A stretch of 41,638 nucleotides of DNA from an uncultured Pelagibacteraceae bacterium (lineage in GTDB: Bacteria; Pseudomonadota; Alphaproteobacteria; Pelagibacterales; Pelagibacteraceae). Of this stretch, positions 3,876 to 36,364 are shown piece after piece (the first letter of the stretch is position 1; every line of letters begins with the position of its first letter). The stretch covers positions 1 to 41,638 of the forward strand of contig CACLAY010000008.1 of assembly GCA_902604975.1 (NCBI GenBank), written 5' to 3'. The notes beneath the pieces were generated by a model. The model was not told where the DNA came from and ran no database searches. It saw nothing but the letters and a program-made list of their open reading frames with translations. The translations under genes were made by a program, and so were the position numbers.

Positions 3876-5066
3876 TTATCTTTGTTTTTTGTCTTTAAAC
3901 TTACCGCCTTTAATTTCTTTTTCTATAAAGGCACCTGCTGCTTCTCCAACATCAGTAAATTCAACACTAGATGCTCCTTCGTAGTTAACTGCTTTTCCAC
4001 TAGCAAGTAAATCTAATGCTTTTTTCAATTCTCCTGGATAAATTTTTTCTCCTGGAGCATTTGCAACAGACATTACATTTGCTTGAACAGTAGCTCTATC
4101 AGCTTTTCCACCAGCTTGCATTGCAAGTACAATCAAAGCTGCAGCATCATAAGACTCTGAAGTATAAGGTCCAGATGAATCGATTCCTGCTCCACCAGCT
4201 ACACCTTTAAATATTGTAGCACCTTTACCCATTGATCCTGGCAAAGATCCAAATGATTTGTTTAAATCATTTCCGAATCTGTCAGTTAAAGAGTCACCGA
4301 TCATTCCATCAGATAAAACGAACACGTCAAACGCACCTGAGTCTAATGAACCATCAATGATACTTCCACCAGCTTGGTCTAAGTAACCTAACACAGCTAA
4401 AGCATCGCCACCTGCTGCTGCCAATGTTGCAACTTCAGCACCGTAGTCTCCTTTACCTTCTTCATGAGCTGTAACAACTGTTACATTTATTCCATGAGCT
4501 TTAACAGCTGCAACATATACATCTGCTAAACCTTTACCGTAGTCGTTGTTAGTGTGTGTAACTGCAATACTTTTAACTTTTCTATCTTTAGTAATATCTG
4601 CTAATACTTGACCACCTCTTGCGTCAGATGGAGCAGTTCTAAAGAAATATCCATTATCATTAAGATCAGTTAATCCTGGAGAAGTAGCTGATGGCGAAAT
4701 CATAACTACACCATTTGGAACAGCAACGTTAGTTGCAATAGCTCCAGTTACACCAGAACAATCAGCACCCATAATTGCTACTACACCGCCAGATATTAAA
4801 CCTTCTGCAGCAGCTGTTGCAGCAGCTGAGTCAACACAAGTTGAATCTGCTCTCTCAACAGAAATCTTCTTTCCTCCAAGTAATGAACCTGAATCTGAAG
4901 CTTCTTTAAATGCAAGCTCTGCTGATGCAGCCATTGCTGGAGTTAGGGATTCAATAGGACCTGTAAATCCTAAAATAATTCCCATTTTAATGCCATGTCC
5001 ATCTGAATATGCTTTAGTTGCAAAGCAAGAAACAAATACAAACATCGCTAATACTAGTTTTTTCAT
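3876..5066 (-). CDS. Periplasmic amino-acid/amide-binding protein of a Liv-type ABC transporter (LivJ-like)
   Basis: This 396-residue exported protein would capture the substrate for LivGFHM. A signal peptide is visible (Lys-Lys, hydrophobic core LVLAMFVFVSCFA, likely cut near AYS/D at about residue 22). The mature part has the Peripla_BP_6 fold: 'KMGIILGFTGPIESL' as strand 1, the typical Cys pair around C58 and the 'GADCSG' segment, 'SPSATSPGLTD', and the hinge 'YTSESYDAAALIVLAM'. A good Shine-Dalgarno (AGAGGGA, 5071-5077) precedes the ATG and a strong terminator follows, as expected for an abundant binding protein transcribed alone. The gene converges on the permease operon. Ligand unknown: amino acids, urea or amides are all possible. 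Confidence 0.9.
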   Translation of the reverse strand: MKKLVLAMFVFVSCFATKAYSDGHGIKMGIILGFTGPIESLTPAMAASAELAFKEASDSGSLLGGKKISVERADSTCVDSAAATAAAEGLISGGVVAIMGADCSGVTGAIATNVAVPNGVVMISPSATSPGLTDLNDNGYFFRTAPSDARGGQVLADITKDRKVKSIAVTHTNNDYGKGLADVYVAAVKAHGINVTVVTAHEEGKGDYGAEVATLAAAGGDALAVLGYLDQAGGSIIDGSLDSGAFDVFVLSDGMIGDSLTDRFGNDLNKSFGSLPGSMGKGATIFKGVAGGAGIDSSGPYTSESYDAAALIVLAMQAGGKADRATVQANVMSVANAPGEKIYPGELKKALDLLASGKAVNYEGASSVEFTDVGEAAGAFIEKEIKGGKFKDKKQR

Positions 5067-5139: not shown

Positions 5140-5997
5140 TTATCTCATTTTTTGAGCAAAAAACACTGAAGTAATGACAATTATTCCTCCAATTACTGTT
5201 ACTAGAGATGGAATCTCACCAAAAATAAAAAAAGTAAGGATTAAACCAAACACAGGGAATAAAGCGTAGAATGGTAATACCATATCAAGAGGATAAAATT
5301 TATAAAGATAGAACATCATTAAATGTCCAAGCAAAGAAATAATTGCTCCAGCGTATAAAACTGTGAACCAACTTCCTAAACTTATATTTTTTATTGCTTG
5401 AAATGTATTTCCTTCAAATATTGCAGACAATATTATTAAAATTATAAATCCTGTGAAGCTCATTATAGTATTTGTAAATTTAACATCTAATTCTTTTAAA
5501 TATCTCGAAAATACTTGGGATAGTCCGTAGAAAAAAGCCATACCACAAATAAGAAGTGATCCTATTACTTCGTCTACTACTTTTGGATCGAATGCGAGTA
5601 TGACAATACCAAAAAAAGATATCATAATTAATATCCATTTTTTATAACTTATTTTTTCATCTAAAAATATTGAGCTTAATATAATTCCAAAAGGAATTGA
5701 AAGTTGAGCCCCTATTGTAATTGGCGCAAGTATACTTGATGCATTTATAGATAAATATAAAAACATATTTACCGCAACACCAAAACATAATGAAAACCCA
5801 ATTAAGGGAATAATATATTTTTTGTCTATTATTTGAATTTTAAAAAATGGGATTAAACAAATAAAAACAACAGCCATTCTTAATGAGCCAAAAAGAATTG
5901 GTGGAATAGTGTCGTTTAATCCAAGCTTGCCAGTTGGATATGCACTTCCTAATAAAAATACAACAAATAAAATAAGTAAAGTATGTTTTGCAGACAA
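5140..5997 (-). CDS. EamA/DMT-superfamily membrane transporter
   Basis: A 285-residue protein with about ten hydrophobic helices arranged as two five-helix EamA repeats. It opens with 'LLILFVVFLLGSAYPTGKLG', where a G/S-x-x-P near the first helix is common in EamA proteins, and ends 'VIGGIIVITSVFFAQK', the usual last helix. It is the last gene of the minus-strand operon running from 11701 and starts 3 bp after the aldehyde dehydrogenase stop. By position it may move a substrate or product of that pathway; the family covers metabolite exporters and some importers, so direction and cargo are unknown. Confidence 0.85.
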   Translation of the reverse strand: MSAKHTLLILFVVFLLGSAYPTGKLGLNDTIPPILFGSLRMAVVFICLIPFFKIQIIDKKYIIPLIGFSLCFGVAVNMFLYLSINASSILAPITIGAQLSIPFGIILSSIFLDEKISYKKWILIMISFFGIVILAFDPKVVDEVIGSLLICGMAFFYGLSQVFSRYLKELDVKFTNTIMSFTGFIILIILSAIFEGNTFQAIKNISLGSWFTVLYAGAIISLLGHLMMFYLYKFYPLDMVLPFYALFPVFGLILTFFIFGEIPSLVTVIGGIIVITSVFFAQKMR

Positions 5998-6000
5998 AAA

Positions 6001-7482
6001 TTATCTTATAGAGAAAGGATCTAATGTTGGTTCATCAGATGTGTAATACCAAGTTGTCTTAACTCTAGTATAATCTTTAATTGAGTCCATTCCCGCTTCC
6101 TTTCCATATCCACTATCTTTAATACCACCAAAAGGTGCTGATGGAGAAATCAATCGATAAGTATTTACAAATGTTATACCTGCTCTTATTGCATTAGAAA
6201 CTCTTAGACCTCTGGAGAAGTCACTTGTATAGACCCCAGAAGATAATCCATATTGATTATCGTTCATTTTCTCTATTACCTCTTTTTCCGTATCAAATTT
6301 CATAACTGATAAAACTGGTCCAAAAAGCTCGTTTTCTGCAGTTGGAAGATTATGATTATCACATTCAATTATTGTAGGAGGAAAATAGTATCCCTCATTT
6401 GAAAATGGATGCCTTTCACCACCACACTTTATTTTTCCACCTTGTTCTGTGGTTTTTTTTATGTTTTTTTCAATAATTTCTAATTGTTTATAATTACTTA
6501 AGGGTCCCATTTCTGTGTCTGGATCCATGGGAGCGCCAATTTTTATTTTTTCAGCTCTTTTTGAGAGTTTGTCAAGGAACTCATCGTAAATTCCTTTTTG
6601 TAGATATAACCTTGAACCAGCAATACAACTCTGTCCGCTAGCTCCAAATATTCCTGCAGTAATTCCATTAATAGCATTTTCTTGATGAGCATCATCAAAT
6701 ACTGCAACAGGACTTTTTCCTCCAAGTTCTAAGCTTACTTCTGATAAATTTTCTGCTGAATTTCTAATTATATGTCTTGCAGTTTCGGGTCCTCCTGTAA
6801 AAGCAACTTTTTCAACTAAATTATGTGTAGTTAAAGCCTTTCCACATGGGTCTCCAAATCCTGTAATAACATTAACAACTCCTTTAGGAATACCAGTTTC
6901 TTCAATAAGTTTTGCAAATTCAAACATTACTGCTGGAGCAAGTTCTGATGATTTAATAACCACTGTGTTTCCCATAGCTAAAGCAGGCGCAAGTTTTGTA
7001 GCTGTTAAAAACATTTGAGAATTCCATGGAACAATCGCAGCGATAACACCAATAGGTATTCTTGAAGTTATGGCTTGAATATTTGGTTTATCTATTGGCA
7101 GAACTGTGCCTTCGACCTTGTCTGCCATACCTGCGTAATAATCATAATACTCAGCAATATAATTTGCTTGTTTATTTGTTTCTCTATAAAGTTTTCCAGT
7201 ATCTATAGTTTCAATTTTTCCAAGTAATTCTGCGTTATCTCTAAGCTTATTTCCAATAGCTCTTAGAAACTTTGCTCTTTCACGCGGTAATATTTTAGGC
7301 CAATCTCCTTCAAAGGCTTTTTGAGCTGCTTGAACTGCTTTATCTACGTCAGAAGCACTTGCCTCAGGAACAACTGCCCAGGGTTTATTATCTTCCGGAT
7401 TTAAAGTTTCAAAAGTTTTTTTAGTATCAGATTCAACCCATTGTCCCCCTATAAACATTTTATATTTTTTTAATTCAGGCAT
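6001..7482 (-). CDS. NAD(P)-dependent aldehyde dehydrogenase
   Basis: A 493-residue cytoplasmic ALDH of usual length with all key residues: N154 in PWN, K177 of the 'VVIKSSE' cofactor motif, the general base E252 in LELGGKSP, and nucleophile C286 in GASGQSCIAGSR. It overlaps the upstream alpha/beta hydrolase by 8 bp, which ties it to the six-gene operon with an LLM oxidoreductase and a ThDP enzyme. It probably oxidises an aldehyde generated by those enzymes to the acid. Best general resemblance is to betaine-aldehyde and hydroxymuconic-semialdehyde-type ALDHs, but the substrate cannot be assigned. Confidence 0.88.
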   Translation of the reverse strand: MPELKKYKMFIGGQWVESDTKKTFETLNPEDNKPWAVVPEASASDVDKAVQAAQKAFEGDWPKILPRERAKFLRAIGNKLRDNAELLGKIETIDTGKLYRETNKQANYIAEYYDYYAGMADKVEGTVLPIDKPNIQAITSRIPIGVIAAIVPWNSQMFLTATKLAPALAMGNTVVIKSSELAPAVMFEFAKLIEETGIPKGVVNVITGFGDPCGKALTTHNLVEKVAFTGGPETARHIIRNSAENLSEVSLELGGKSPVAVFDDAHQENAINGITAGIFGASGQSCIAGSRLYLQKGIYDEFLDKLSKRAEKIKIGAPMDPDTEMGPLSNYKQLEIIEKNIKKTTEQGGKIKCGGERHPFSNEGYYFPPTIIECDNHNLPTAENELFGPVLSVMKFDTEKEVIEKMNDNQYGLSSGVYTSDFSRGLRVSNAIRAGITFVNTYRLISPSAPFGGIKDSGYGKEAGMDSIKDYTRVKTTWYYTSDEPTLDPFSIR

Positions 7483-8248
7483 TTTGTATATGATCTTTAA
7501 TTGCTTTATTTACATCATATGAGCATTCAATACTACATAGATGTTTGCCTACAGGTATTATTTTTACTTCAGAGTTTTTAATTTTTTTACTCAGATTATC
7601 AGACATTTCTGGAGTTGAGCCTACATCACCTTCTCCAGTCATCACAAGTGTTTTGACATTAATATTTTCAAATTTTTCGTTATCTTTATGATTTACAAAC
7701 AACGAGTAAACTTTAATAAAGTTGTCCATATTATTATTGTCAAGTATTGAGAAAATTTTATCTGAAATTAGAGGATTTTTCTCAATAAAATCCTTATTAA
7801 ACCATCTATTGAGTGCGTCTTTTGTCAGTTTTTTATCTTTCTTTGTCTGTTCAAACCTTTCATTTACTATCTTCTGTTCGTTATCAGATCTATTAAATAT
7901 TGAGCACAACAATGTTAGGGATTTCAATCTATCACTAAATCTCATTGCAAAGTTTCTTGCAATCAATGAGCCTATTGAAAATCCAATAAGGTGAATTTTA
8001 CTAAATTTTAATTCATCAATAAGATCAATAATTTGATCTGAAAAATCATCAAAACTTATTTTTTCTTTATTTAAAGGTGTTCTACCGTGTCCAAGGATAT
8101 CATAAATTAAAACTGTATTATCAAATTCATTAATTTGTGGATCCCATATATTATGATCAAGACCCACACCATGAATAAATACTATTGGAATTCCTTTTTT
8201 TTGATTTAGTTTATAGAATGTACCTTTAGAATCTGTTGCATTGATCAT
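7475..8248 (-). CDS. Alpha/beta-fold hydrolase (enol-lactonase/RutD-like)
   Basis: A 257-residue cytoplasmic hydrolase. Oxyanion-hole motif HGVGLDHNIW (about 26-35), nucleophile S91 in GFSIGS, the acidic residue in 'VMTGEGDVGSTP' and the C-terminal histidine in 'PVGKHLCSIE' complete the triad. Overall layout resembles 3-oxoadipate enol-lactonase (PcaD) and RutD. It shares an unusual cap motif RWF..(D/N)FIEKNP (residues 148-159) with the hydrolase at 21151-21921, so the two are paralogues. It lies 2 bp after the AA_synth gene and overlaps the ALDH by 8 bp. It may open a lactone or hydrolyse an ester or amide produced by the LLM enzyme; this is inference. Confidence 0.82.
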   Translation of the reverse strand: MINATDSKGTFYKLNQKKGIPIVFIHGVGLDHNIWDPQINEFDNTVLIYDILGHGRTPLNKEKISFDDFSDQIIDLIDELKFSKIHLIGFSIGSLIARNFAMRFSDRLKSLTLLCSIFNRSDNEQKIVNERFEQTKKDKKLTKDALNRWFNKDFIEKNPLISDKIFSILDNNNMDNFIKVYSLFVNHKDNEKFENINVKTLVMTGEGDVGSTPEMSDNLSKKIKNSEVKIIPVGKHLCSIECSYDVNKAIKDHIQNA

Positions 8249-8250
8249 TA

Positions 8251-8838
8251 TTATTTTGGATCAATGCCCATCTCCTTCATATCTTGGTATCTATCGCCTG
8301 TTCTTGCATGAGCTCTACCTGTCGAGGCGCCACCAATTGCAATAACAATTTCATCATCAAATGGAGCATCATGAATTGTAAACTCATGTGTAAGATAATA
8401 TGGTCTTAAACCAGAGTCGGTTTTGTGCATCATTGGAATAGATATTTTGGATCCAGCCGGACCTCTTGTATTCGTAAAACTTAAATAAGAAGTTCCTCCA
8501 ACAGCATCTCTGAACTTATTTCCAAATCTTAATGTATGAATAAATGCTGATGCATGTTCTATTTCTCCATTCAGTCCAACCACACCTGCTTTCCCATATG
8601 CTAATATTTTATCAGGAGAGCCTATTTCTTTTATAAGTTCAGGAACTAATAAATCTCCAAGTTTAGGAGCTAGATCTAAAATAATTGGTTTTAAGTCCTC
8701 CACAAAACCTTTTCCATCCCAAGGATTTTTAAAAACTGCAGCAACAGAAACCATCAAAACTGGTTCTTTAGCTTCTTTTCCACCTTCAATAATAGTCTTA
8801 TCTACAAATTTAGTAAACTTACGTAATTCTAATTTCAT
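8251..8838 (-). CDS. AA_synth (DUF1185) family protein
   Basis: A 195-residue soluble protein that I recognise as the family named 'amino acid synthesis' (PF06684, DUF1185). Characteristic runs are 'EPVLMVSVAAVFKNPW', 'AYGKAGVVGLNGEIEHASA', 'GNKFRDAVGGTSYLSFTNTR' and the end 'AIGGASTGRAHARTGDRY'. The biochemical role of this family is not established to my knowledge, despite its name. It overlaps the ThDP-enzyme gene by 4 bp and sits 2 bp before the hydrolase, firmly inside the catabolic operon. The conserved Gly-rich and Arg/His-rich C-terminus suggests an active site. No signal peptide or membrane segment. Confidence 0.75.
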   Translation of the reverse strand: MKLELRKFTKFVDKTIIEGGKEAKEPVLMVSVAAVFKNPWDGKGFVEDLKPIILDLAPKLGDLLVPELIKEIGSPDKILAYGKAGVVGLNGEIEHASAFIHTLRFGNKFRDAVGGTSYLSFTNTRGPAGSKISIPMMHKTDSGLRPYYLTHEFTIHDAPFDDEIVIAIGGASTGRAHARTGDRYQDMKEMGIDPK

Positions 8839-10535
8839 TTTTTAATTCTATGTGTAAAGCTATCTCTTCTAAAACTGTATAACGCTTTTGGATCTACATC
8901 AACATCTATAACAACTGGTTTATTTACTTTTAATGCACTTTTTACGGCCTCATTAACTTCTGATAATTTTTTAACTTTAATTCCTTTAGCACCATATAGT
9001 TTCGCAACTTCATCAAAAGGAGGACTTTGAATATCAGCTCCTAAATATCTTTCACCATAGAAATCTTTTTGATAAGCTTTTTCTGCGCCCCAACTTTTAT
9101 TATTCATTACAATTGTAATTGTGTTAATGCCATGCTCTACAGCTGTACTTAATTCAGAAATAGTCATTCCAAATCCACCATCACCCATTAAACTAACAAC
9201 TGTTTTATTAGGTTTTGCAACCTTTATTCCCAAACCACATGCAAATGAGAAGCCTACTAAACCAAAATCAAGGGGTGTGAAAAGGGAAGGAGGATTGTAA
9301 TATTCTAAAGCATCTGTTGCTTGAAGACAAAGTGTTCCAGCATCAAGTGTTATTGCAGTATTTTTTGGTAGTACTTTTCTTAATTCTCTGAATAGACCGT
9401 TCGGTTGGATTGGAAAATTTTTTGACTTTATATTATCTCTATCTTTAAGAAATTTTGATCTCTCTAATAAAAAGCTATTTGTCCATTCTTTGTAATTGAA
9501 AATTTTCTTTTGTTTTCTTAATTCAGCTAAAATTTGATCTGTCACAAGTGCAGCATCGCCATGAATACCTACATTAATTGGAAAGTATCTTCCTATCATT
9601 GTTTTTTCTAACTCAATTTGTACAATTTTTGCGTTTTTATTTATATTGTCATACGAATAGAAAGTGGAATTGAAACCAAGTCTTGTACCAATTGCAATAA
9701 TTAGCTCTGCCTCTTTGACTAATCTTGATGCAACAATATTTCCTCTAGGTCCCATTTGTCCGGCATTTAACTTATGACTAAAGGGAATTGCATCTCCATG
9801 TCCCGCTGCAGTTACAATTGGAATATTTAAATATTCAGCAAGATTTGTTACAGATTTAAATTTCGAATTATATTTTATTCCTCCTCCAGCAACAATTACT
9901 GTTTTTTTTGAGTTGAGAATAAGTTTTATAGTTCTATCAATTAAATTTTTTTTACTTTTTAGGTCACTTTCAGCTTTAAAAGATTTTTTATTTTCATTAA
10001 TCTTAAACTTTGAAGTATCAGAAAGAACATTTCTTGGAAGGTTTATACAAACTGGTCCTCTGCGTGGTGACATTGCAAGGTTAAAAGCATCTTTGAAGGC
10101 TGTTGGTATATGACTTGTCTTTTTTACTGTCCATGTTTTTTTTGTTATAGGATCAAAAAGTGATTGTTGATCAAGTCCTTGAAAGGCATCCTCCATCTTA
10201 TCTTTAGTAGAATATAAACCTGCAATAGATACCACAGGAGAAAATGCTGCTTTTGCTTGTGCTATGCCTGTAACGAGATTAGTTGCTCCTGGACCGTTTT
10301 GGCCGGCAATTATTACACCTGGTTGATTAGAAGCTCTTGCATATCCATCTGCCATATGCGTTCCAGTTCTTTCGTCTCTTACACCTATAAACTTGATTTT
10401 CTTTTCATGATATAATGCATCAAACATCTCCATTGTAGCTGAACCAATTAAACCAAATACGTGTTTAACTTTTTCTTTTTTTAAGGATTTCACTGCCGCT
10501 TGACCACCGGTCAAGGTATTCTTGGTCTTGATCAC
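8835..10535 (-). CDS. Thiamine-diphosphate-dependent enzyme of the acetolactate synthase superfamily
   Basis: A 566-residue three-domain ThDP enzyme: PYR domain (about 8-175) with the cofactor-activating glutamate E55 in 'VRDERTGTHMADGYARA', a central domain (about 195-335), and a PP domain with the Mg-ThDP motif GDG...NN (451-453 and 478-479). Length is like acetolactate synthase, glyoxylate carboligase, oxalyl-CoA decarboxylase or sulfoacetaldehyde acetyltransferase. The 'AGQNGPGATNLVTGI' segment is common to several of these. Since it is embedded between an LLM oxidoreductase and an AA_synth protein, with 4-bp overlaps on both sides, a catabolic role on a 2-oxo acid or aldehyde is more likely than branched-chain amino acid synthesis. 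Exact reaction unknown. Confidence 0.85.
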   Translation of the reverse strand: MIKTKNTLTGGQAAVKSLKKEKVKHVFGLIGSATMEMFDALYHEKKIKFIGVRDERTGTHMADGYARASNQPGVIIAGQNGPGATNLVTGIAQAKAAFSPVVSIAGLYSTKDKMEDAFQGLDQQSLFDPITKKTWTVKKTSHIPTAFKDAFNLAMSPRRGPVCINLPRNVLSDTSKFKINENKKSFKAESDLKSKKNLIDRTIKLILNSKKTVIVAGGGIKYNSKFKSVTNLAEYLNIPIVTAAGHGDAIPFSHKLNAGQMGPRGNIVASRLVKEAELIIAIGTRLGFNSTFYSYDNINKNAKIVQIELEKTMIGRYFPINVGIHGDAALVTDQILAELRKQKKIFNYKEWTNSFLLERSKFLKDRDNIKSKNFPIQPNGLFRELRKVLPKNTAITLDAGTLCLQATDALEYYNPPSLFTPLDFGLVGFSFACGLGIKVAKPNKTVVSLMGDGGFGMTISELSTAVEHGINTITIVMNNKSWGAEKAYQKDFYGERYLGADIQSPPFDEVAKLYGAKGIKVKKLSEVNEAVKSALKVNKPVVIDVDVDPKALYSFRRDSFTHRIKK

Positions 10536-11701
10536 GATACTTTTTTAACTTCAGTATCTAGATCATCTTTAAAGTTAGGCATTACTTTTTCAGTAAATAG
10601 CTTAATACTTTTCATACAATCTTCATGTTTAACACCAGGAAAGTTAGACCAAACTTGAAGATTTTGAAGATTAAGCTCTGATTGAAGTTCTTTAATCTTA
10701 TCTGTTACATATTCAGGAGTACCAAATAACATATTTCGCTTATGTAAAAACTCGTAATTAAGAAGATCTAATTTGCCCTTTGTTTCTGGAAGCTCTTCAC
10801 CAGGATCCATGTGATTACCAAGACCTCTCCAATGACAAACCCATTTCATATAATTTACCATATGTTGCCCAGCTTTCTCTTTAGCCTCTTCCATAGTATC
10901 AGCGACAAACATATCTCTAACGAGAGTAACGCCTTCACCTAAAGGAACATTTTTTTTAGTAACTTCCGATCTTTTATTTTTGTATGCTTCAAATCTTATT
11001 TTCAATGCTTTAACTGTAGGTATCCACATAATTACATTTATATTATTTTCTGCAGCCCACTCTATAGATCTTATACCATCAACAACTTGATGTATTGGAG
11101 GGTGTGGATTTTGATAAGGCTTTGGAAGAACACTAATTTTTTTCATAGTGCTATTTTCCATATTCATAAATTCTTCACTTGGCGGGCTCATGTCATGCTG
11201 CCAAACATAGTTTGGTGATGGGTAAGTATAAAATTCTCCATCATGATTAAAAAATTTCTCTGACCATGCTTTTTTCAAAATTTCCAATGTTTCAGCAAAT
11301 AATCTAAAATTTTTTGCTTGATCTTTTAGATCTGCTTCTTTATTTAAATTAATTGCTTCTCTTCCATAAACACCTCTTGCAACACCAACTTCTACTCTTC
11401 CTTTTGAAAGTTGATCAAGTGTAGCAATATCTTCTGCTAATCTTATAGGATTATGAAAAGTTATTACATTTGCTGCTTGTCCTATTCTTATATTTTTTGT
11501 TCTTGCTGCAGCATCTGCTCCTAGCATTAGGGGATTGGTACACGACTCCATTCCTTCATGGTTAAAATGGTGTTCAGTAAACCAAATTGAATTCCAACTG
11601 TTTTGATCACAATATTCAGTGATCTGTTTAGTTTCATCTAATAATTTATGATACGGTTTGTGTGTCCAATTTGTAGTATTACAAAAATAACCAAACTTCA
11701 T
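10532..11701 (-). CDS. LLM-class (luciferase-like) flavin-dependent oxidoreductase
   Basis: A 389-residue TIM-barrel flavoprotein, taken from the ATG at 11699-11701. The frame is open 14 codons further upstream (to 11743), but a near-perfect Shine-Dalgarno (AAAGGAGG, 11706-11713) sits 4 nt before this ATG and 'MKFGYFCNTTNW' is the normal first strand of the family, so the shorter start is preferred. Family signs: 'WFTEHHF', 'GQAANVITFHNPIRLAEDIATLDQLSKGRVEVGVARG' (described in parts), and 'VVDGIRSIEWAAENNI'. It uses reduced FMN, or F420 in some relatives, usually as a monooxygenase. First gene of the six-gene operon; the likely promoter lies in the 100-bp gap 11702-11801. Confidence 0.87.
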   Translation of the reverse strand: MKFGYFCNTTNWTHKPYHKLLDETKQITEYCDQNSWNSIWFTEHHFNHEGMESCTNPLMLGADAAARTKNIRIGQAANVITFHNPIRLAEDIATLDQLSKGRVEVGVARGVYGREAINLNKEADLKDQAKNFRLFAETLEILKKAWSEKFFNHDGEFYTYPSPNYVWQHDMSPPSEEFMNMENSTMKKISVLPKPYQNPHPPIHQVVDGIRSIEWAAENNINVIMWIPTVKALKIRFEAYKNKRSEVTKKNVPLGEGVTLVRDMFVADTMEEAKEKAGQHMVNYMKWVCHWRGLGNHMDPGEELPETKGKLDLLNYEFLHKRNMLFGTPEYVTDKIKELQSELNLQNLQVWSNFPGVKHEDCMKSIKLFTEKVMPNFKDDLDTEVKKVS

Positions 11702-16143: not shown

Positions 16144-16611
16144 TTATTTTTTTAGCTTACCAGAAAACACTAAATTTTCTGAGTTAAAAGAAACCTTATT
16201 TTTATTTATAAACTCATCCATTATTTGGATTTTATCTTGTTCAAATTCTGTGACCTTTCTTTTATCCAGATCAATATAAAGCGAAAGGCTTTCAATAGTT
16301 GCAGCAAGTTTTTTTGAATTCTTTTCATACATTTCGCATTTTAAATGTAATCTTTTTTTATCATGATCAAAGAAGGTGCAATAAACATCTACTTCATCAT
16401 TTTCTTTCACTTCATTGTCATAGGTAGTTCTCGTATCTACAACCATAGTACTTCTTTTATTAATTTGTGCATTTGAACCACCCATATGAAACTTATTAAG
16501 CATTGTTTCCCATGCTTGATCAAAAATTAAAACATAGTATGCCATATTCATATGTTCATTGTAGTCTGTCCATTCCTTAATAATTTTTCTAGTGGCAAGA
16601 TGAAATGACAT
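16144..16611 (-). CDS. cdhB: Hot-dog-fold acyl-CoA thioesterase, predicted betainyl-CoA thioesterase
   Basis: A 155-residue single hot-dog domain protein. The active-site helix region 'WTDYNEHMNMAYYVLIFDQAWE' (D-Y-N-x-H-M-N-x-A-x-Y) is the 4HBT-type catalytic segment, followed by 'VVDTRTTYDNEVKENDEVDVYC'. In carnitine catabolism of Pseudomonas and Sinorhizobium a thioesterase of this kind hydrolyses betainyl-CoA to glycine betaine; in Sinorhizobium it is fused to carnitine dehydrogenase. Here the BKACE and carnitine dehydrogenase genes lie about 1.6 kb away on the opposite strand, diverging from the same operon head, so this role is likely. The specific substrate is inferred from context only. 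Confidence 0.72.
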   Translation of the reverse strand: MSFHLATRKIIKEWTDYNEHMNMAYYVLIFDQAWETMLNKFHMGGSNAQINKRSTMVVDTRTTYDNEVKENDEVDVYCTFFDHDKKRLHLKCEMYEKNSKKLAATIESLSLYIDLDKRKVTEFEQDKIQIMDEFINKNKVSFNSENLVFSGKLKK

Positions 16612-16619
16612 AATTTAAT

Positions 16620-17480
16620 TTAAACTTTATTTATTTTATCTGCTATCAATATTTTCCTTTTCATTTCTCGAAGGACAGGTTTTTCTATAAGTTTACCGTC
16701 TATGACCACTAGACCTGTATTTGAATTATTAAATTCTTCTAAAATTTTTTTAGCCTTGATAATTTCATCTTGAGGTGGTGTAAATACTTCATTTAAAATT
16801 TTAATTTGTTTTGGATGAATTGAACCTTTTCCTGTAAAACCTAAGTTTCTTACTTGTTCAGCCTCTTTCCTCATTCCTTCCATATTCTCTAAGTCTAAAT
16901 AAGGTACATCAATTACATCTACACCAACACTTGCACCTGCATGAACTAATTTAGATCTCGCATGGACAAGATTTTCCCATTTATTTTCAACTCTAAGCTC
17001 AGCTGCCATATCAACTCCACCAAAATATAAAGCAACTATTCTTTTACTGGCATGAGCAATATTATAAATATTTTCTAAAGCCTCATTTGTTTCCATTATT
17101 ACATGAAGATCCGTATCTAAATTACAGTCTGTTAAAAGATCATCTATAAACGTTATTTCATCTGGAGTTTTAACCTTTGGTAACATGATAGCCTTTAGAT
17201 TTATTTTGCTAGATATGAAAGCTTCTAAATCTAAAAGACCAAACTTTGTTCTTTGATTATTTAATCTGACAACTAACTCTACATCATTATTTACTTCGAG
17301 AGTTTTTAGAGCCTCTATAGTATTTTTTCTAGCTTCTGCTTTATCATTGATTGCTATCCCATCCTCTAATTCAATACAAACCATGTCTGCACCTGATGCA
17401 ATTGCTTTAGGAAACATTTCTGGATGAAGTCCAGGTGTAAAAATAAAACTTCGTCTTACTTTTAATTTGTTCAAGTCCAT
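16620..17480 (-). CDS. HpcH/HpaI aldolase / CitE-like CoA-ester lyase
   Basis: A 286-residue TIM-barrel lyase of the citrate-lyase-beta/malyl-CoA-lyase group. Motifs: 'RRSFIFTPG' at the N-terminus, metal-binding 'CIELEDGI' (a variant of the usual DLEDAV), 'LPKVKTPDEI', 'VIMETNEALENI' with the metal-ligand glutamate, 'GGVDMAAEL', and 'GFTGKGSIHPKQI', the family's C-terminal signature. Members cleave (methyl)malyl-CoA, citramalyl-CoA or related 3-hydroxy acyl-CoAs. Its gene starts on the base next to the class II aldolase stop, so the two are coupled. Could supply or consume acetyl-CoA for the carnitine branch; substrate not assignable. Confidence 0.82.
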   Translation of the reverse strand: MDLNKLKVRRSFIFTPGLHPEMFPKAIASGADMVCIELEDGIAINDKAEARKNTIEALKTLEVNNDVELVVRLNNQRTKFGLLDLEAFISSKINLKAIMLPKVKTPDEITFIDDLLTDCNLDTDLHVIMETNEALENIYNIAHASKRIVALYFGGVDMAAELRVENKWENLVHARSKLVHAGASVGVDVIDVPYLDLENMEGMRKEAEQVRNLGFTGKGSIHPKQIKILNEVFTPPQDEIIKAKKILEEFNNSNTGLVVIDGKLIEKPVLREMKRKILIADKINKV

Positions 17481-18212
17481 TTAATTTTTGTAATCAGGTT
17501 CTTCTTTATCTAAAATTAATCTTATTTGAGATAGGAATAGATTTGCAAAATCAGTTGGAAAGTTTGCATGTTCTTCTGCAGTTTTTTCTGCAACTTCATG
17601 GCTGACCACATTAAGTTCTTGGTTTGTTGAAAGAGCTGTAAGATATGTTTGTGCCGCTCTTTCAAAATAATAAAGGGAATTAAAACCTTCAGCCACAGTT
17701 TCTCCTGTTGTTAAAATTCCATGATTTGCGAGTAACATGTGCTGTTTATTCCCAAGAGAATTCGCCATTTTAATGGATTCGTCCTCAAGTCCTAAACCTC
17801 CAAATTCATTGTATGTAGATACTCTATTATAAAACATCATCGTATTTTGATCGATTGGTTTCAAGACTGGGTCTTTTAGCGTAGAAAGAGCAGTTGCATA
17901 TTTTGAATGGACATGAAAAATACACCTTGCGTGTGGAGCTTTTTCATGAATTGCACCGTGGATATATAAAGCTGTCGGATCAATAACGTCTGGTTTATTC
18001 TTCAACTCATCTTTATTTTCTTCAGTTACTAAGATCAAATCACTAGCCTTCATTCTACTAAAATGAATACCTGCTTTATTGCAGTAAAAATCAGATGTAC
18101 CAGGGATGCATGCACTAAAATGGTTTGCAACTCCCTCATGCATATTAAGTCTAGCCGTCCATCTAAAAGTTGCAGCTAAATCCTTCTGTAATTCTGATAT
18201 TTCCATTTGCAT
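17481..18212 (-). CDS. Class II aldolase/adducin-family protein
   Basis: A 243-residue cytoplasmic protein of the L-fuculose-phosphate-aldolase fold. Zinc ligands H100 and H102 (CIFHVHSKYATAL) and H164 (LLANHGILTTG) are present. The upstream segment 'DPTALYIHGAIHEKAPHARC' aligns with the family but lacks the usual Ser-Glu catalytic acid, so aldolase activity is uncertain; many relatives are decarboxylases or have unknown roles. First gene of the seven-gene minus operon. Two in-frame ATGs (18212 and 18206) are possible. The gene diverges from the BKACE gene across only 29 bp. Confidence 0.82.
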   Translation of the reverse strand: MQMEISELQKDLAATFRWTARLNMHEGVANHFSACIPGTSDFYCNKAGIHFSRMKASDLILVTEENKDELKNKPDVIDPTALYIHGAIHEKAPHARCIFHVHSKYATALSTLKDPVLKPIDQNTMMFYNRVSTYNEFGGLGLEDESIKMANSLGNKQHMLLANHGILTTGETVAEGFNSLYYFERAAQTYLTALSTNQELNVVSHEVAEKTAEEHANFPTDFANLFLSQIRLILDKEEPDYKN

Positions 18213-18241
18213 GATTTTAAAATATAGTTGAAAAATAAATT
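18213..18241. promoter_or_regulatory. 29-bp divergent promoter region between the aldolase operon and the carnitine operon
   Basis: The two start codons face each other with 29 bp between them. A central AATATAGT (18221-18228) reads as TATAGT on the plus strand (18223-18228) and TATATT on the minus strand (18226-18221), each one mismatch from TATAAT. With start points about 7-8 nt downstream, the plus message would have a 5-8 nt leader and the minus message almost none. No Shine-Dalgarno is visible on either side. The -35 elements would have to lie inside the opposite coding sequences. Predicted by eye only. Confidence 0.4.
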
Positions 18242-19129
18242 ATGAACAACAACGTTTTTGTATCATGTGCTGTAACAGGGTCAGGCGATACTGCTAGCAA
18301 ACACCCTGACTTACCAAAAACTCCAGAACAAATAGCTAAATCAGCAATAGAGGCAGCAAAAGCTGGAGCAGCAATTGCACATATTCATGTTAGAGAAGAA
18401 GATGGAACACCAAGTAGAAGGTTGGAATTATATAAAGAAGTAGTTGATAGAATTAGATCAAGTGAAACCGATGTAATTTTAAACTTAACTACTGGAATGG
18501 GTGGAGATTTGGACATAGGACAAGGAAAAAACCCACTAGATTTTGGCCCTATGACAGACATGGCAAATGTTATGGAAAGAATAGCTAATGCAGAACAATT
18601 TTTACCAGAAATTTGCACATTAGATGCTGGAACTTTAAACTTTGGTGATGGTTCAGTCATTACAGTTAATACTCCTAATGATTTAAGAAAAGCTGCAAAA
18701 AAATTACAGGAAATTAAAGTTAAACCAGAGATAGAGGCATTTGATTTAGGCAATATGTGGTTTGGCTCTCAATTATACAAAGAAGGTTTGTTAGATGATC
18801 CTCCAATGTTTCAAATGTGTTTAGGTATTCCTTGGGGAGCTCCAGCTACTCCGTTAGCAATGCAAGCAATGAAAGATATAATGCCAGAACAAGGAGTGTG
18901 GTCAGGCTTTGCAATATCAAAAAATGAAATGCCTTTTGTAGCACAAACAGTTGTTATGGGTGGAAACCCAAGAGTTGGTTTAGAAGATAATTTGTATATA
19001 TCAAAAGGTAAACTTGCAACCAATGCTCAGTTAGTTGAAAAAGCGATCAGAATTGTAACAGATCTTGGTGCATCAATAATGACTGCAGAAGAAACAAGGA
19101 AAAAATTAAAGCTTGTTAAACACAAGTAA
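18242..19129 (+). CDS. cdhC: BKACE-family enzyme (DUF849), predicted 3-dehydrocarnitine:acetyl-CoA cleavage enzyme
   Basis: A 295-residue TIM-barrel zinc enzyme. The zinc histidines H47 and H49 (AHIHVREEDG) and the C-terminal catalytic set R244, E248, D249 (NPRVGLEDN) match the spacing of the beta-keto acid cleavage enzyme Kce (R, +4 E, +5 D). The family condenses a beta-keto acid with acetyl-CoA to give acetoacetate and a new CoA ester. Because the next gene, overlapping by 1 bp, is a carnitine 3-dehydrogenase, the keto acid is most probably 3-dehydrocarnitine, giving betainyl-CoA. First gene of the plus-strand operon; no ribosome site is visible in its very short leader. Confidence 0.88.
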   Translation: MNNNVFVSCAVTGSGDTASKHPDLPKTPEQIAKSAIEAAKAGAAIAHIHVREEDGTPSRRLELYKEVVDRIRSSETDVILNLTTGMGGDLDIGQGKNPLDFGPMTDMANVMERIANAEQFLPEICTLDAGTLNFGDGSVITVNTPNDLRKAAKKLQEIKVKPEIEAFDLGNMWFGSQLYKEGLLDDPPMFQMCLGIPWGAPATPLAMQAMKDIMPEQGVWSGFAISKNEMPFVAQTVVMGGNPRVGLEDNLYISKGKLATNAQLVEKAIRIVTDLGASIMTAEETRKKLKLVKHK

Positions 19130-20073
19130 TGTCCAAAATTAAAAAAGTTGCAGTAATTGGCACTGGAGTAATTGGAGTAGGGTGGACAATAAGACTCTTA
19201 GCTCACAACATAAAAGTTTTGGCATACGATAAAAATTTAATTCAAAAGAATAGCTTAATCCAAGAAATAAAAAGAGCCTTACCTTTTGTTAAAAAACTAT
19301 TTAATAAAAAAAAGATAAATTTAAATAATTTAAAGTTTTTTTCTTCTTTAGAGAGTACCGTTAAAGATGCAGATCTAATCCAAGAATGTGCTCCTGAAAA
19401 CTATAAACTTAAAACTCAATTAATAAGTCAAATTTCAAATTATTGTAAACCTGAGGTTTTGATATCATCAAGCTCATCTGGATTACTTCCCTCAAGAATT
19501 TTTTCAAAATGTAAAAATAATAAAAGAGGTATCATTGCCCATCCATTCAATCCTGTTTATTTACTACCTTTAGTTGAAATAGTTCCAGGAAAAAAAACAA
19601 GCTCTAAATCATTAAATGCAGCAAATAAATTTTATAAATCGATCTCAATGAACCCAATTACCCTTAAAAAGGAGCTGCCAGGATATCTATCTGATAGACT
19701 GCAAGAAGCTTTATGGAGAGAAGCGCTTCATATTATAAATGAAGGGTATGCCTCTACAGAGGATTTAGATAGAGCTATTGAGGACGGCCCAGGCTTAAGA
19801 TACTCATTAATGGGAACATTTTTAACTTTTCATTTAGCAGGAGGAAAAGCCGGAATGAAACATATGCTTGAACAATTTGGGCCTGCATTAAAACTCCCAT
19901 GGACTAAGCTTAAAGCCCCAAAATTATCAAAAAAACTCTCAGAAAGATTGATTTCTGGTACAAAAAAGCAAGCAAAAGGAAAGTCAATCAATCAATTATC
20001 AAATATAAGAGATGAGTACTTAGTCAACTTACAAAACCTTAGAAAAAAATATGAAAATAAAATTAGAAAATAG
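19129..20073 (+). CDS. cdhA: L-carnitine 3-dehydrogenase (3-hydroxyacyl-CoA dehydrogenase fold)
   Basis: A 314-residue NAD-dependent dehydrogenase. Rossmann motif VIGTGVIGVGW (9-19), 'QECAPENYKLK' at the cofactor edge, 'SSSSSGLLPS', and the catalytic segment 'AHPFNPVYLLPLVEIV', which with 'GLLPS' is diagnostic of carnitine dehydrogenases rather than fatty-acid FadB/PaaH types. It oxidises L-carnitine to 3-dehydrocarnitine, the substrate of the preceding BKACE enzyme; the stop and start codons share one base. The C-terminal tail is very Lys-rich. In rhizobia this enzyme is fused to a thioesterase domain; here it is free-standing and the thioesterase is encoded at 16144-16611. Confidence 0.88.
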   Translation: MSKIKKVAVIGTGVIGVGWTIRLLAHNIKVLAYDKNLIQKNSLIQEIKRALPFVKKLFNKKKINLNNLKFFSSLESTVKDADLIQECAPENYKLKTQLISQISNYCKPEVLISSSSSGLLPSRIFSKCKNNKRGIIAHPFNPVYLLPLVEIVPGKKTSSKSLNAANKFYKSISMNPITLKKELPGYLSDRLQEALWREALHIINEGYASTEDLDRAIEDGPGLRYSLMGTFLTFHLAGGKAGMKHMLEQFGPALKLPWTKLKAPKLSKKLSERLISGTKKQAKGKSINQLSNIRDEYLVNLQNLRKKYENKIRK

Positions 20074-20109: not shown

Positions 20110-21144
20110 ATGGATTTTAATCATTTTTTAACAAGTTACATGCCAGATACAAGTATTGGTTCAAGGCAGCATTTTAAAAATATGCTTGAAGAATGTGTAA
20201 CTGCTGAAAAACTTGGTTATGCAACAGTATCAATACCAGAGCATCATTTAATTAACTTACTAATGATGCCATCACCATTACAGATGGCTGTAAAGATCGC
20301 ATCAGTTACAAAAAATATTAAAATAACAACAGGGATAGTTGTTTTGCCTCTACACGATATGAGAACATATGCTGGTGAAGTAGCTACTGCTGATATACTA
20401 ACTGATGGAAGATTAATATTAGGTGTAGGAAGAGGAGCATTTCCATGGGAAATGAAGAGACTAGGCACACCAATAGAACAATCAAAAGAAAAATTTGTAG
20501 AGTCTTTAGAGGTTCTACAATTGTTGTTAAAAAATAATGAAGTTTCGTATAAAGGCAAATACTATGACTTCGAACCATTAACTATAATGCCTCGACCCAT
20601 AAGTAATCCAATACCAATGATGGTTGCCGCAATGAATTTAGAAAGTATAAAAGATGCAGCTTCAAGAGGATTTCATGTTCAATCAACAGTATTATCTGGA
20701 ACAAAAGATCTTTTGTTAAGTAGAGTTAATGCATTCAAAGAAGGTTGCATTCAACTAGGTGAAAAAGGTAAATTACTCAAACTTTCAATGCAAAGAATGG
20801 CTTATCTAGCAAAAGATGAAAATGAAGCTAGAGAGAAAACAAAACTTGCTTACGAATATTACAAAAGATTTGATAATATGTTTACAGGACCAGGGAAAGT
20901 AAAAGATGGGAATATAGAAGCTTTGCCAAGAAAACAAACTTTAGAAGAATTAAAAGAAAATCTTTTAATTTGCCCTTTAAATGAAATGATCGATAAACTT
21001 AGCGTTTATGCTGAAGCAGGAGTTGATGAGGTAATTCTTAGTTCAAGTTTTGGACAATCTCAAGAAGACCTAATAGAGTCAATGTATAGAATTGGTGAAA
21101 ACGTAATCCCATATTTCAAAAAATCTAATATACAAGTAGCTTAA
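20110..21144 (+). CDS. LLM-class (luciferase-like) flavin-dependent oxidoreductase
   Basis: A 344-residue TIM-barrel flavoprotein. Family features: 'VSIPEHHLI' near residue 40, 'KITTGIVVLPLHDMRTYAGEVATADILTDGRLILGVGRG' (in parts), 'YDFEPLTIMPRPISNPIPMMVAA', and 'GVDEVILSS' at the last strand. It probably acts as an FMNH2-dependent monooxygenase. It begins 36 bp after the carnitine dehydrogenase and 6 bp before an alpha/beta hydrolase, reproducing the LLM plus hydrolase pairing of the 5140-11701 operon, although the two LLM proteins look only distantly related. Possible role: oxidation of a quaternary-amine-derived carboxylate or amide. Needs a flavin reductase, not seen in this window. Confidence 0.85.
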   Translation: MDFNHFLTSYMPDTSIGSRQHFKNMLEECVTAEKLGYATVSIPEHHLINLLMMPSPLQMAVKIASVTKNIKITTGIVVLPLHDMRTYAGEVATADILTDGRLILGVGRGAFPWEMKRLGTPIEQSKEKFVESLEVLQLLLKNNEVSYKGKYYDFEPLTIMPRPISNPIPMMVAAMNLESIKDAASRGFHVQSTVLSGTKDLLLSRVNAFKEGCIQLGEKGKLLKLSMQRMAYLAKDENEAREKTKLAYEYYKRFDNMFTGPGKVKDGNIEALPRKQTLEELKENLLICPLNEMIDKLSVYAEAGVDEVILSSSFGQSQEDLIESMYRIGENVIPYFKKSNIQVA

Positions 21145-21150
21145 ATATCT

Positions 21151-21921
21151 ATGAGCATCATAGATTGCAATTACTCAGTCACAGGATCAGGGCCTGCAAT
21201 ATTTTTAACTCATGGAGTAGGAGGAGCAGAAGATGCATGGAGGTTCATAGTTCCAAAACTTAAAGATAAATTCACAGTTGTAACATATGATTTAAGAGGC
21301 CATGGAAAATCACCAGTAGATAATAAAGATTTTAATTTAGATGATCTTGTTTTAGATCTTGAAAGAGTAAGAGAAAAGGCAAACATCGAAAAAGCCCATT
21401 TTATGGGGCATTCTTTAGGAGGAATGATTGCGCCTGCTTATGCTAAAAAGTTTCCTGAAAGAGTTTTGTCAGTTGGCTTATTATCAACAGTTGCAGGAAG
21501 ATCCGATGAAGATAAGCAAAAAGTTTGGAATGTAATTTCAGATCTAAGAGATAAGGGTGTTGAACAAACATTAAAAAATCTCACTAACAGATGGTTTACA
21601 GACAATTTTATTGAAAAAAATCCAGACCTGGTATCTAGGAGATTAAAACAGGTAATAGATACTGATAAAGATGTATTCATAAATGTTTTTAAAATTTATG
21701 CGGAAACCGAGATGATCTCTTGGTTAAAAGATATAAAAAAACCCTGCCTATTTATGACAGGTGAAAATGATGGTGGATGCACTCCTTCTCATAATAAAAA
21801 AATGTCAAACGAGGTTAAAGATTCTAAATTAGTTATTATACAAGAGGTAAAACACTCTTTTTTGATAGAGGCTCCTGAGCAAATAGCAAATAACTTAATA
21901 GAATTTATTGAAAATATTTAA
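21151..21921 (+). CDS. Alpha/beta-fold hydrolase, paralogue of the one at 7475-8248
   Basis: A 256-residue hydrolase with oxyanion motif HGVGGAEDAW (about 21-30), nucleophile S88 in GHSLGG, acidic residue in 'FMTGENDGGCTP', and base in 'EVKHSFLIEAP'. It shares with the other hydrolase the cap motif NRWF..NFIEKNP (146-158) and the 'MTGE.D.G.TP' strand, so both likely descend from one duplication and may hydrolyse related compounds. It starts 6 bp after the LLM gene and its stop is 4 bp from the convergent SDR stop. Resembles 3-oxoadipate enol-lactonase and RutD-type enzymes. Confidence 0.83.
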   Translation: MSIIDCNYSVTGSGPAIFLTHGVGGAEDAWRFIVPKLKDKFTVVTYDLRGHGKSPVDNKDFNLDDLVLDLERVREKANIEKAHFMGHSLGGMIAPAYAKKFPERVLSVGLLSTVAGRSDEDKQKVWNVISDLRDKGVEQTLKNLTNRWFTDNFIEKNPDLVSRRLKQVIDTDKDVFINVFKIYAETEMISWLKDIKKPCLFMTGENDGGCTPSHNKKMSNEVKDSKLVIIQEVKHSFLIEAPEQIANNLIEFIENI

Positions 21922-24717: not shown

Positions 24718-25851
24718 ATGAATTCTATTTCTAAAATCGCAAAAAACAGCACTTATTTACAAATTACTTGGAATGATGGTGAAGAAAGTAAATTTAATTA
24801 CATGTGGTTAAGAGATAATTGTCCTACTGCACATGATAAAGACTCAAGACATAGAATGTTTAATATCTTAGAGGTATCAAAAGAAATAAATCCCAAAAAA
24901 TATTCTTTAAATGGTGATGGCAAATTAGAAATAGAGTGGAGTGAGGGTGACCACACAAGTTATTATGATCCTAAGTGGTTGAGAGAAAATTGTTATACAA
25001 TTAAAAATAAACAAGAATATGTCTCACCTTATCATCTTTGGAATAATAATTTGGAAAAAGAATTTTCGTCGATATGTATTGAACATGATGAAGTAATTAA
25101 TTCTGATGAAGGATTAATAAAGTGGTTAGAACTATTACATCATAAAGGTATAGCAATAGTAAAAAATTCACCAACAGAAAAAAAATCAGGTTTTGATATT
25201 CTTCATAGAATAAGTCACGTAAGAGAAACCTTTTTTAAAACCCCCTTTGAAGTAATCAATATTCCAAAACCAAATAATTCTGCTTACACAGCTCATGCTC
25301 TAAGAAATCATATGGATTTACCTTGGTTTGAATTACCACCTGGTTATCAGTTTTTACACTGTTTAGTAAATGATGCGAAGGGTGGAGACTCTTCTGCAAT
25401 TGATGGCTTTGCAGTTGCTGATTATTTGAGAAAAAATGAAAAAGATATTTTTGAAACATTAGTCTCTGTACCCCTAAAGTTTAGAGATAAAGATTATACT
25501 CAAGAATCTCACCGAAGCTTCCATGCCCCAGCAATTAGTTTAACAAAAGATAAAGATTTTCATGATATTAGATTTAGTGTTGCAACTATGGATGCATTAG
25601 ACTGCCATCCAGACCAAATGGACAAAGTTTATAAAGCTCACCACAGATTTGGCAATCTTTTACATGATGACAAATTTCAAATTAAATTTCGACTAGGACC
25701 AGGAGATATATTTTCTTTTAATAATAGGCGTGTTTTACACGGTAGAACAGCTTTTGATCCAAATTCAGGTCATCGTCATCTTCAAGGATATTACCTAGAT
25801 AGAGATGAGATAATTGGCAGATTAGAATATCTTAAACAATATAAATCATAA
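24718..25851 (+). CDS. Gamma-butyrobetaine dioxygenase (2OG/Fe(II)-dependent, carnitine-forming)
   Basis: A 377-residue two-domain oxygenase. Residues about 1-100 form the BBOX N-terminal (DUF971-like) domain with 'YMWLRDNCPTAHD' and 'WLRENC'; residues about 125-370 form the TauD-type catalytic domain with iron ligands H198, D200 (NHMDLPWFE) and H341 (RRVLHGRTAF), and a 2OG arginine in 'SGHRHLQGYYLDRDE'. Ligand positions and length are almost those of gamma-butyrobetaine and trimethyllysine hydroxylases. The product carnitine would feed the operon at 18242. Only one of the clustered zinc cysteines of the human N-terminal domain is kept. Its last 6 bp overlap the convergent GDPD gene. Confidence 0.8.
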   Translation: MNSISKIAKNSTYLQITWNDGEESKFNYMWLRDNCPTAHDKDSRHRMFNILEVSKEINPKKYSLNGDGKLEIEWSEGDHTSYYDPKWLRENCYTIKNKQEYVSPYHLWNNNLEKEFSSICIEHDEVINSDEGLIKWLELLHHKGIAIVKNSPTEKKSGFDILHRISHVRETFFKTPFEVINIPKPNNSAYTAHALRNHMDLPWFELPPGYQFLHCLVNDAKGGDSSAIDGFAVADYLRKNEKDIFETLVSVPLKFRDKDYTQESHRSFHAPAISLTKDKDFHDIRFSVATMDALDCHPDQMDKVYKAHHRFGNLLHDDKFQIKFRLGPGDIFSFNNRRVLHGRTAFDPNSGHRHLQGYYLDRDEIIGRLEYLKQYKS

Positions 25852-35374: not shown

Positions 35375-36364
35375 ATGCTTTTTAAAGAAAAGTTAAAATC
35401 AAATTCAAAAATATTCTTAGATGGTGGAAACGGTTCTGAAATTGCAAAATTGGGAGGTGAAATGTCTCCTGCTTTTTCTGCCTTAGCCTCAATATTATCT
35501 CCAGAAATAGTAATTAAGGTTCATGAAAAGTTTATTGATGCTGGTTGTGATCTAATTACTGCAAATACTTTTAGTTCTACCAGACATAATCTTGAAAGTA
35601 TAAATCGTGGAGATGAAGTTAAAGAATTTATCATTCAATCATTAAAATTATCCAGACAAGCAATTCAAAATAAAGGTAAAGAAAGTAAAATTGGAATTGC
35701 TGGAAGTTTATCAAATTTTTTTTCACTGAAGGAAAATGAATTTGTACCAAATCCTAAGTTCATACCCTCTTTTAAACAGGAGGAACAAAATTATAAAGAA
35801 GCTGCAAAAATTCTGAAAGAGGAAGGGGTAGATATTTTAATTTTAGAAATGTTACTTGATATTGATCATTCAAAAATTCTATTGAATGCTGCCTTAGAAA
35901 CTGACTTGCCAGTTTGGGTTGGATTAAGTTCTTGTATAAGTAAATTTGATAATAGTGTAATTGGCAGAAATTTTAGCGCGGAAAAAGAAACTTCATTAAT
36001 TTATGATAAAACCAAATATAAAGAGCAACCAAAATTTATTCCTGATGATAAAATTGTACTATTAAATGACATTGTAAAATCCCTTACAAATATGGGAGGA
36101 GATGTTTATGGCATCATGCATACCTGGTTTGTAGATGCTTTTGAAGGATTGAATATAATTAAAAATAATTGGAATGGTCCGATGATGTTTTACCCTGAGA
36201 TACATAAATTTGATACAAAGTCCCATAAAGCTATTGTAACTTCTACAGAGGAAGAATTTGCTAATGAATGTGAAAAGTTAATTGACAACCAGATCCAAAT
36301 TATTGGCGGATGCTGTGGAGTTACAGACAAACATCTAAAAAAACTAATTGAGACCTATTCTTAA
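35375..36364 (+). CDS. Homocysteine S-methyltransferase family protein with an altered zinc site
   Basis: A 329-residue TIM-barrel protein: 'IFLDGGNGSEIAKLGGEM' at the N-terminus, 'VHEKFIDAGCDLITANTFS', 'GIAGSLSNF', 'ILEML' and the C-terminal zinc pair C313-C314 in IIGGCCG. In characterised members (MetH, BHMT, MmuM) the first zinc Cys lies in a G-x-N-C motif some 63-82 residues earlier. Here that place is 'YGIMHTW', with H249 sixty-four residues before C313 and no Cys. The enzyme may use a Cys-Cys-His zinc site or act on another thiol. It is last in the alcohol dehydrogenase - amidase operon. Methyl donors could be betaine or S-methylmethionine; undetermined. Confidence 0.82.
   Translation: MLFKEKLKSNSKIFLDGGNGSEIAKLGGEMSPAFSALASILSPEIVIKVHEKFIDAGCDLITANTFSSTRHNLESINRGDEVKEFIIQSLKLSRQAIQNKGKESKIGIAGSLSNFFSLKENEFVPNPKFIPSFKQEEQNYKEAAKILKEEGVDILILEMLLDIDHSKILLNAALETDLPVWVGLSSCISKFDNSVIGRNFSAEKETSLIYDKTKYKEQPKFIPDDKIVLLNDIVKSLTNMGGDVYGIMHTWFVDAFEGLNIIKNNWNGPMMFYPEIHKFDTKSHKAIVTSTEEEFANECEKLIDNQIQIIGGCCGVTDKHLKKLIETYS

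Follow-up and report, generated by a model that had tools for sequence, protein, structure and literature searches.

A SAR11 operon that probably carries a branch of the trigonelline-type ring-opening module

An uncultured member of the Pelagibacteraceae carries, on contig CACLAY010000008.1 of assembly GCA_902604975.1 (41,638 nucleotides, referred to here as the window), six genes whose combination raises the question of whether they encode an undescribed catabolic pathway or a form of a known one. The genes are uninterrupted open reading frames (ORFs) arranged in tandem on the minus strand between positions 5140 and 11701 (Table 1), and are transcribed in the order luciferase-like flavin monooxygenase (LLM), thiamine diphosphate (ThDP) enzyme, PF06684 protein, alpha/beta hydrolase (ABH), aldehyde dehydrogenase (ALDH) and EamA permease. 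A first-pass annotation of the locus had described a tightly packed six-gene operon of these families that matches no pathway. All six ORFs, their Pfam families and the tight spacing are confirmed, with gaps of 2 bp (ABH/PF06684) and 3 bp (EamA/ALDH) as described; the overlaps, given as 2–8 bp, are of 4 bp (ThDP/LLM and PF06684/ThDP) and 8 bp (ALDH/ABH). The lack of a matching pathway is contradicted, as LLM, PF06684, ABH and ALDH are the gene set of the tgn-type operons, annotated with tgnA, tgnB and tgnC in Acinetobacter sp. PK01, and we consider it likely that these four genes form, in SAR11, a branch of the ring-opening module found in trigonelline (tgn)-type operons. The source genome is incomplete (76.77% complete), and its PF06684 protein is 99% identical to its closest named relatives, which are Pelagibacteraceae (SAR11).

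The steady part of the operon is apparent from two sets of SAR11 loci: the best 80 of 501 close loci, which are mostly near copies, and 40 further loci that we chose from the 64 PF06684-bearing SAR11-family genomes (20 from other genera and 20 from the same genus), so that proportions are not population frequencies. LLM and PF06684 are both seen in 73 of the 80 sampled close loci and in 38 of the 40 further loci. The ThDP gene is present in 69 and absent from four of those 73, and is present in 10 and absent from 28 of those 38; in these 28 the LLM and PF06684 genes are separated by 2–44 bp, except for one pair at 468 bp. Where at least 4.5 kb of downstream sequence is available, ABH and ALDH follow in all 61 of the sampled close loci and in 34 of 35 further loci, with EamA (counted as undetected if no match exceeds 150 bits) in 50 of the 61 and five of the 35. 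The steady SAR11 core is LLM-PF06684-ABH-ALDH, to which some lineages add ThDP and EamA. With no ThDP gene in 28 of the 38 further loci, the ThDP-dependent cleavage previously placed at the centre of the pathway is not central, and the EamA permease, undetected in 30 of the 35, is likewise accessory and unsupported as the entry step.

Of 297 SAR11-family genomes, 64 have PF06684 and 61 have LLM, the 61 falling entirely within the 64, and in near-complete genomes (completeness at least 90%, contamination at most 5%) both occur in the identical 42 of 127. Three PF06684 genomes have no LLM match (G393, G442 and G506), and in two of these (G393 and G506) the contig stops beside the gene. The kept adjacency and the joint presence and absence of LLM and PF06684 show that the grouping is beyond chance. 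The PF06684 protein is strikingly conserved in SAR11 (lowest identity 84%, median 97%), with ABH dropping to 42%. We also note that in one genome (G414, locus L230) the LLM gene contains an in-frame TGA and consists of two overlapping pieces, reflecting either sequencing error or decay, and PF06684, ABH and ALDH are kept.

A plasmid of Acinetobacter sp. PK01 contains a run annotated as trigonelline degradation, composed of PF06684, ABH, tgnA (reductase), tgnB (LLM oxygenase) and tgnC (ALDH) genes in that order, with a succinate-semialdehyde dehydrogenase gene downstream and a cytosine permease gene nearby. As in SAR11, the LLM oxygenase, ALDH, ABH and PF06684 genes lie in one run, and the SAR11 ALDH and PF06684 proteins are 52% and 56% identical to those of PK01. 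In contrast, the SAR11 gene order differs, ThDP and EamA join it in some lineages, a LIV-type binding protein gene rather than a cytosine permease gene lies nearby, the PF01613 reductase gene carried by tgn clusters is lacking, and the oxygenase is from another LLM subfamily. The arrangement PF06684-ABH-flavin reductase-LLM-ALDH is also found on plasmids of Chimaeribacter, Leisingera, Thioclava, Rhizobium etli, Sinorhizobium meliloti (pSymA) and Ruegeria SCSIO 43209, and the four core genes co-occur repeatedly in several proteobacterial orders. Plasmid records with PF06684 (329) and with TgnB-like LLM (326) have near-equal genus tallies, compared as totals per genus and not record by record (Rhizobium 154 and 153, Sinorhizobium 70 and 72, Leisingera 17 and 17, Acinetobacter 6 and 6). 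The earlier view that the genes act as one unit is supported, and LLM, ABH, ALDH and PF06684 are linked beyond their own genome, so that the lack of conservation elsewhere that would have counted against that view does not apply. Clusters of the same four genes with other partners are present in Parasedimentitalea (L298), Thalassospira (L299), Agrobacterium pAt (L300) and Mesorhizobium ciceri (L301): Parasedimentitalea has CoA transferase and carnitinyl-CoA dehydratase, Agrobacterium pAt has a carboxymuconolactone decarboxylase family gene, and this variety of partners suggests that the module may serve several substrates.

PF06684 is present in 82 of 385 alphaproteobacterial genomes, and a tree of 138 rows (one of which, L294, duplicates L139) resolves a TgnF-like clade of 45 rows, supported at 100/100, that includes all nine SAR11 rows used. 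The SAR11 rows group with that of genome G211 (99/90) and lie outside a 13-row clade containing the annotated trigonelline row. We surveyed the neighbourhoods of 116 PF06684 genes in 100 regions, from 128 places outside the source genome, some of the regions stopping at contig ends. Within 7 kb, the 23 TgnF-like genes have LLM (13), ABH (20), ALDH (14), flavin reductase (10) and ThDP (two) partners, whereas the other 93 have one LLM, one flavin reductase, and no ABH (above 150 bits), ALDH or ThDP; the profiles were built partly from the same clusters, and the split between the two groups is backed by the tree and not independent of it. One clade of PF06684 travels with ABH, ALDH and LLM and the rest of the family does not, which narrows its role and makes its function testable.

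We found no evidence that the PF06684 protein is a missing isomerase or hydrolase, as had been suggested; the only functional claim that we met is in a passage of PMC7913881, where TgnF, a PF06684 homologue, is said to stimulate TgnE-dependent succinic semialdehyde oxidation. The two solved proteins of the PF06684 family (structures 2qtp and 3byq; proteins BB2672 and SPO0826) give phmmer values of 6.8e-26 and 9.8e-20. Both are outside the tree sample and are taken to belong to the non-TgnF-like group on the basis of the transport neighbours of SPO0826, near which a passage of PMC2954203 reports branched-chain amino acid transport genes. That group, which accounts for 93 of the 116 alphaproteobacterial genes examined, differs from the SAR11 protein in the absence of ABH and ALDH partners. 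Many alphaproteobacteria (L177–L192 among others) contain a tandem pair of non-TgnF-like PF06684 genes, of which several lie close to genes for ABC transporter ATPases, and in Pantoea sp. PSNIH1 plasmid CP010326.1 (H154) the feature at the PF06684 match is annotated as a 'peptide synthetase', a likely misannotation.

The SAR11 ALDH is TgnC-like in its pairwise identities, sharing 49–53% with three tgn-type ALDHs compared to 34% and 39% with two unrelated full-length ALDHs, and contains the GQSC and LELGG motifs. The ABH encoded next to PF06684 has an intact catalytic triad: S91, D208 and H236 are invariant in 29 of 29 SAR11 rows, and the Ser, Asp and His are likewise kept in a set of 12 of 12 rows. 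The top fold match of its AlphaFold2 (AF2) model (pLDDT 87.1) is the enol-lactonase 2xua (Z 31.0, rmsd 2.1, 249 aligned), tied with a next match at Z 30.2, and the substrate is therefore not readable from the fold. What the sequences show for the assignment of the core to a branch of the tgn-type module is the gene content and order, conservation, the PF06684 clade, the similarity of ALDH to TgnC, and catalytic residues that are intact in both ABH and ALDH.

Several observations weigh against this assignment. The SAR11 LLM is 28% identical to the annotated TgnB of PK01 and does not qualify as its orthologue, whereas three tgn-type oxygenases share 69–74%; the SAR11 ABH is 24–30% identical to three tgn hydrolases, so that orthology is not established for either step. 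Nine further LLM relatives (33–46% identity) are in regions where no such PF06684, ABH or ALDH partner was seen, save for one weak ABH-like match, and the LLM subfamily is therefore not tied to the module. Within 7 kb of the 23 TgnF-like genes, LLM is missing in ten cases and ALDH in nine, and the module ALDH of Agrobacterium pAt is only 42% identical to that of SAR11. The stimulation described for TgnF was not reproduced for its homologue HcdD, for which all attempts at a similar effect are stated to have failed in the same part of PMC7913881. The neighbouring LIV-type binding protein gives no substrate evidence, as it is not pathway-specific: it is encoded near the operon in 26 of the 35 further loci and also occurs in 11 of 12 operon-lacking genomes, in nine of these with an identity of at least 79%, and the transporter was rejected as a substrate clue for that reason. 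Finally, no flavin reductase is among the six operon genes by Pfam, and the PF01613 reductase was found in none of 12 operon-bearing genomes (including the source genome, 77% complete).

The PF01613 reductase is also absent from the eight operon-lacking genomes of the same genus; two genomes of another genus, both lacking PF06684, have it. FMN_red (PF03358) is the sole one of three tested reductase families to be present in all 20 genomes examined, and reduced flavin may thus come from a general enzyme. Nitroreductase, present in one of the 20, was rejected as the flavin source. LLM relatives were seen beside PF06684 only in genomes G211 and G226; that of G211 is 52–53% identical to the SAR11 LLM and, next to the flavin reductase and PF06684 genes, is part of a cluster of LysR, Rieske oxygenase, PF01613 reductase, LLM, PF06684, ABH and ALDH genes. 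The structure model of the SAR11 LLM is unusable (pLDDT 45.4). That the oxygenase differs while the later enzymes are similar points to a substrate that is related but not the same, and the SAR11 operon is a distinct subtype of the tgn-type module, of interest but not unprecedented.

The chemistry that we propose is modelled on the tgn pathway. Using O2 and reduced flavin that would be supplied by a reductase encoded elsewhere, the LLM would open an N-methylpyridinium-type ring to an N-formyl-N-methyl enamine that ends in an aldehyde or lactol, ALDH would oxidise that end to a carboxylate, and ABH would hydrolyse the enamide, yielding formate together with methylamine (or else an N-methylamino acid), and a C4–C5 acid that would enter central metabolism. 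The part of the PF06684 protein would be to assist the aldehyde oxidation, without a step of its own. This departs from the original scheme, which placed hydrolysis before oxidation; TgnC is named as an ALDH acting on a ring-opened hydroxybutyrolactone, oxidation therefore probably precedes the last hydrolysis, and this is the order in the tgn pathway. As the oxygenase and TgnB come from different LLM subfamilies, trigonelline itself is probably not the substrate; a related compound is more probable, with homarine as our leading guess. SAR11 bacteria are among the most abundant plankton, and with the operon present in 42 of 127 near-complete genomes the pathway could be a sizeable sink for phytoplankton N-methylpyridines.

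A homarine (N-methylpicolinate) catabolic operon has been published, reportedly under the name homABCDER and with an abstract that reportedly names SAR11. That the SAR11 operon is a form of this operon, and hence known, is a special case of its being a tgn branch and has a considerable chance of being right, if somewhat short of an even one. Its marine N-methylpyridine substrate would be the one we favour, and a five-gene ALDH-LLM-PF06684-ABH-ThDP cluster with a LysR regulator (L175) is consistent with it; against it, no LysR gene flanks the operon in the window, the one locus inspected for it, where the neighbours are the binding protein gene on one side and a 2-oxoglutarate (2OG) oxygenase gene (Pfam) on the other. 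A different LLM also fits the argument, in a passage of PMC8269262, that TgnA/TgnB are unlikely to act on homarine. The homarine pathway paper is cited in PMC13390433, and the subtype is possibly already covered by that work. Degradation of trigonelline itself is quite unlikely: the core gene set is identical to that of tgn and the ALDH is close to TgnC, but the divergence of the oxygenase, the position of the SAR11 PF06684 proteins outside the clade of the trigonelline row and the missing PF01613 reductase all argue against it. It is somewhat unlikely that the operon opens a heterocycle other than an N-methylpyridine, a reading that draws on the differing partners in Parasedimentitalea, Agrobacterium pAt and G211 (Rieske oxygenase), and thus on possible reuse of the module; however, the sole relative found with an annotated substrate is the trigonelline one. 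A further proposal, which we regard as unlikely, is that in about a third of near-complete SAR11-family genomes an LLM of its own subfamily opens an unreported marine N-heterocycle, neither trigonelline nor homarine, without a dedicated flavin reductase and with an optional ThDP end step to an acyl phosphate in some lineages.

The place of the ThDP enzyme bears on the remaining alternative, the undescribed pathway of the first-pass annotation, in which ThDP makes the aldehyde that ALDH oxidises. Among NCBIfam models the ThDP protein scores best against the sulfoacetaldehyde acetyltransferase (Xsc) model PRK07525, yet it is not a member, with 398.9 bits (cut-off 620) and, against TIGR03457, 385.2 bits (cut-off 676.4). 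Relatives with 57–63% identity are present in six non-SAR11 genomes among 385 searched: with LysR, ALDH, LLM and ABH in G213, additionally with PF06684 in G310, with LysR, PF01613 reductase, ALDH, PF06684 and ABH but no LLM found nearby in G303, with ALDH, LLM, ABH and a DMGDH-like gene in G176, and, in the available sequence of G279 and G357, without any of these partners. These associations in G213, G310, G176 and, for ALDH and ABH, G303 would suit such a pathway, as would phosphotransacetylase, which formation of acetyl phosphate would require and which is present in 22 of 22 genomes; but most of the further SAR11 loci in which LLM and PF06684 stay adjacent have no ThDP gene, which makes this pathway very improbable. 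Within a tgn-type branch, we read the ThDP enzyme as an optional disposal step, which would probably act on a small aldehyde or 2-oxo acid. A 40% relative on the Ruegeria pomeroyi megaplasmid (L085) is accompanied by a trimethylamine-methyltransferase-family gene, a class III aminotransferase and two FAD oxidoreductases, and close relatives of this ThDP protein are near MttB-like genes in G261, G034 and G338.

Table 1. Genes of the operon and other features of the window
Feature	Position	Strand	Basis
LLM (luciferase-like flavin monooxygenase); proposed ring-opening oxygenase; core	10532..11701	-	PF00296 Bac_luciferase 7.5e-44
ThDP enzyme (acetolactate-synthase / sulfoacetaldehyde-acetyltransferase-like); accessory	8835..10535	-	Pfam TPP_enzyme N/M/C
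PF06684 (AA_synth, DUF1185) protein, 195 aa, TgnF-like clade; core	8251..8838	-	Pfam 2.8e-64
ABH, Ser91/Asp208/His236; core	7475..8248	-	PF00561 Abhydrolase_1 6.8e-23
ALDH, TgnC-like; core	6001..7482	-	PF00171 Aldedh 3.3e-160
EamA permease, TTG start; accessory	5140..5997	-	PF00892 1.1e-24
LIV-type periplasmic binding protein, directly downstream of operon; frequent neighbour, not pathway-specific	3876..5066	-	PF13458
4HBT thioesterase	16144-16611		Pfam
BKACE	18242-19129		Pfam
3-hydroxyacyl-CoA dehydrogenase-like	19129-20073		Pfam
Second LLM-ABH pair	20110-21921		
gamma-butyrobetaine-hydroxylase-like	24718-25851		Pfam
Homocysteine S-methyltransferase family	35375-36364		PF02574
Homocysteine S-methyltransferase family	37996-38910		PF02574

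Elsewhere in the window there is a carnitine-type gene set (16144–20073 and 24718–25851), the families being assigned by Pfam and the carnitine function being our own reading. These genes are unsupported as partners of the pathway, since such neighbours are uncommon in the sequence retrieved around the 38 further SAR11 loci (2OG oxygenase in 11, GMC in nine and BKACE in two). The second LLM-ABH pair lies beside the BKACE and dehydrogenase genes, and its products are 28% and 32% identical to those of the first pair. Two homocysteine S-methyltransferase family genes are located further to the right.

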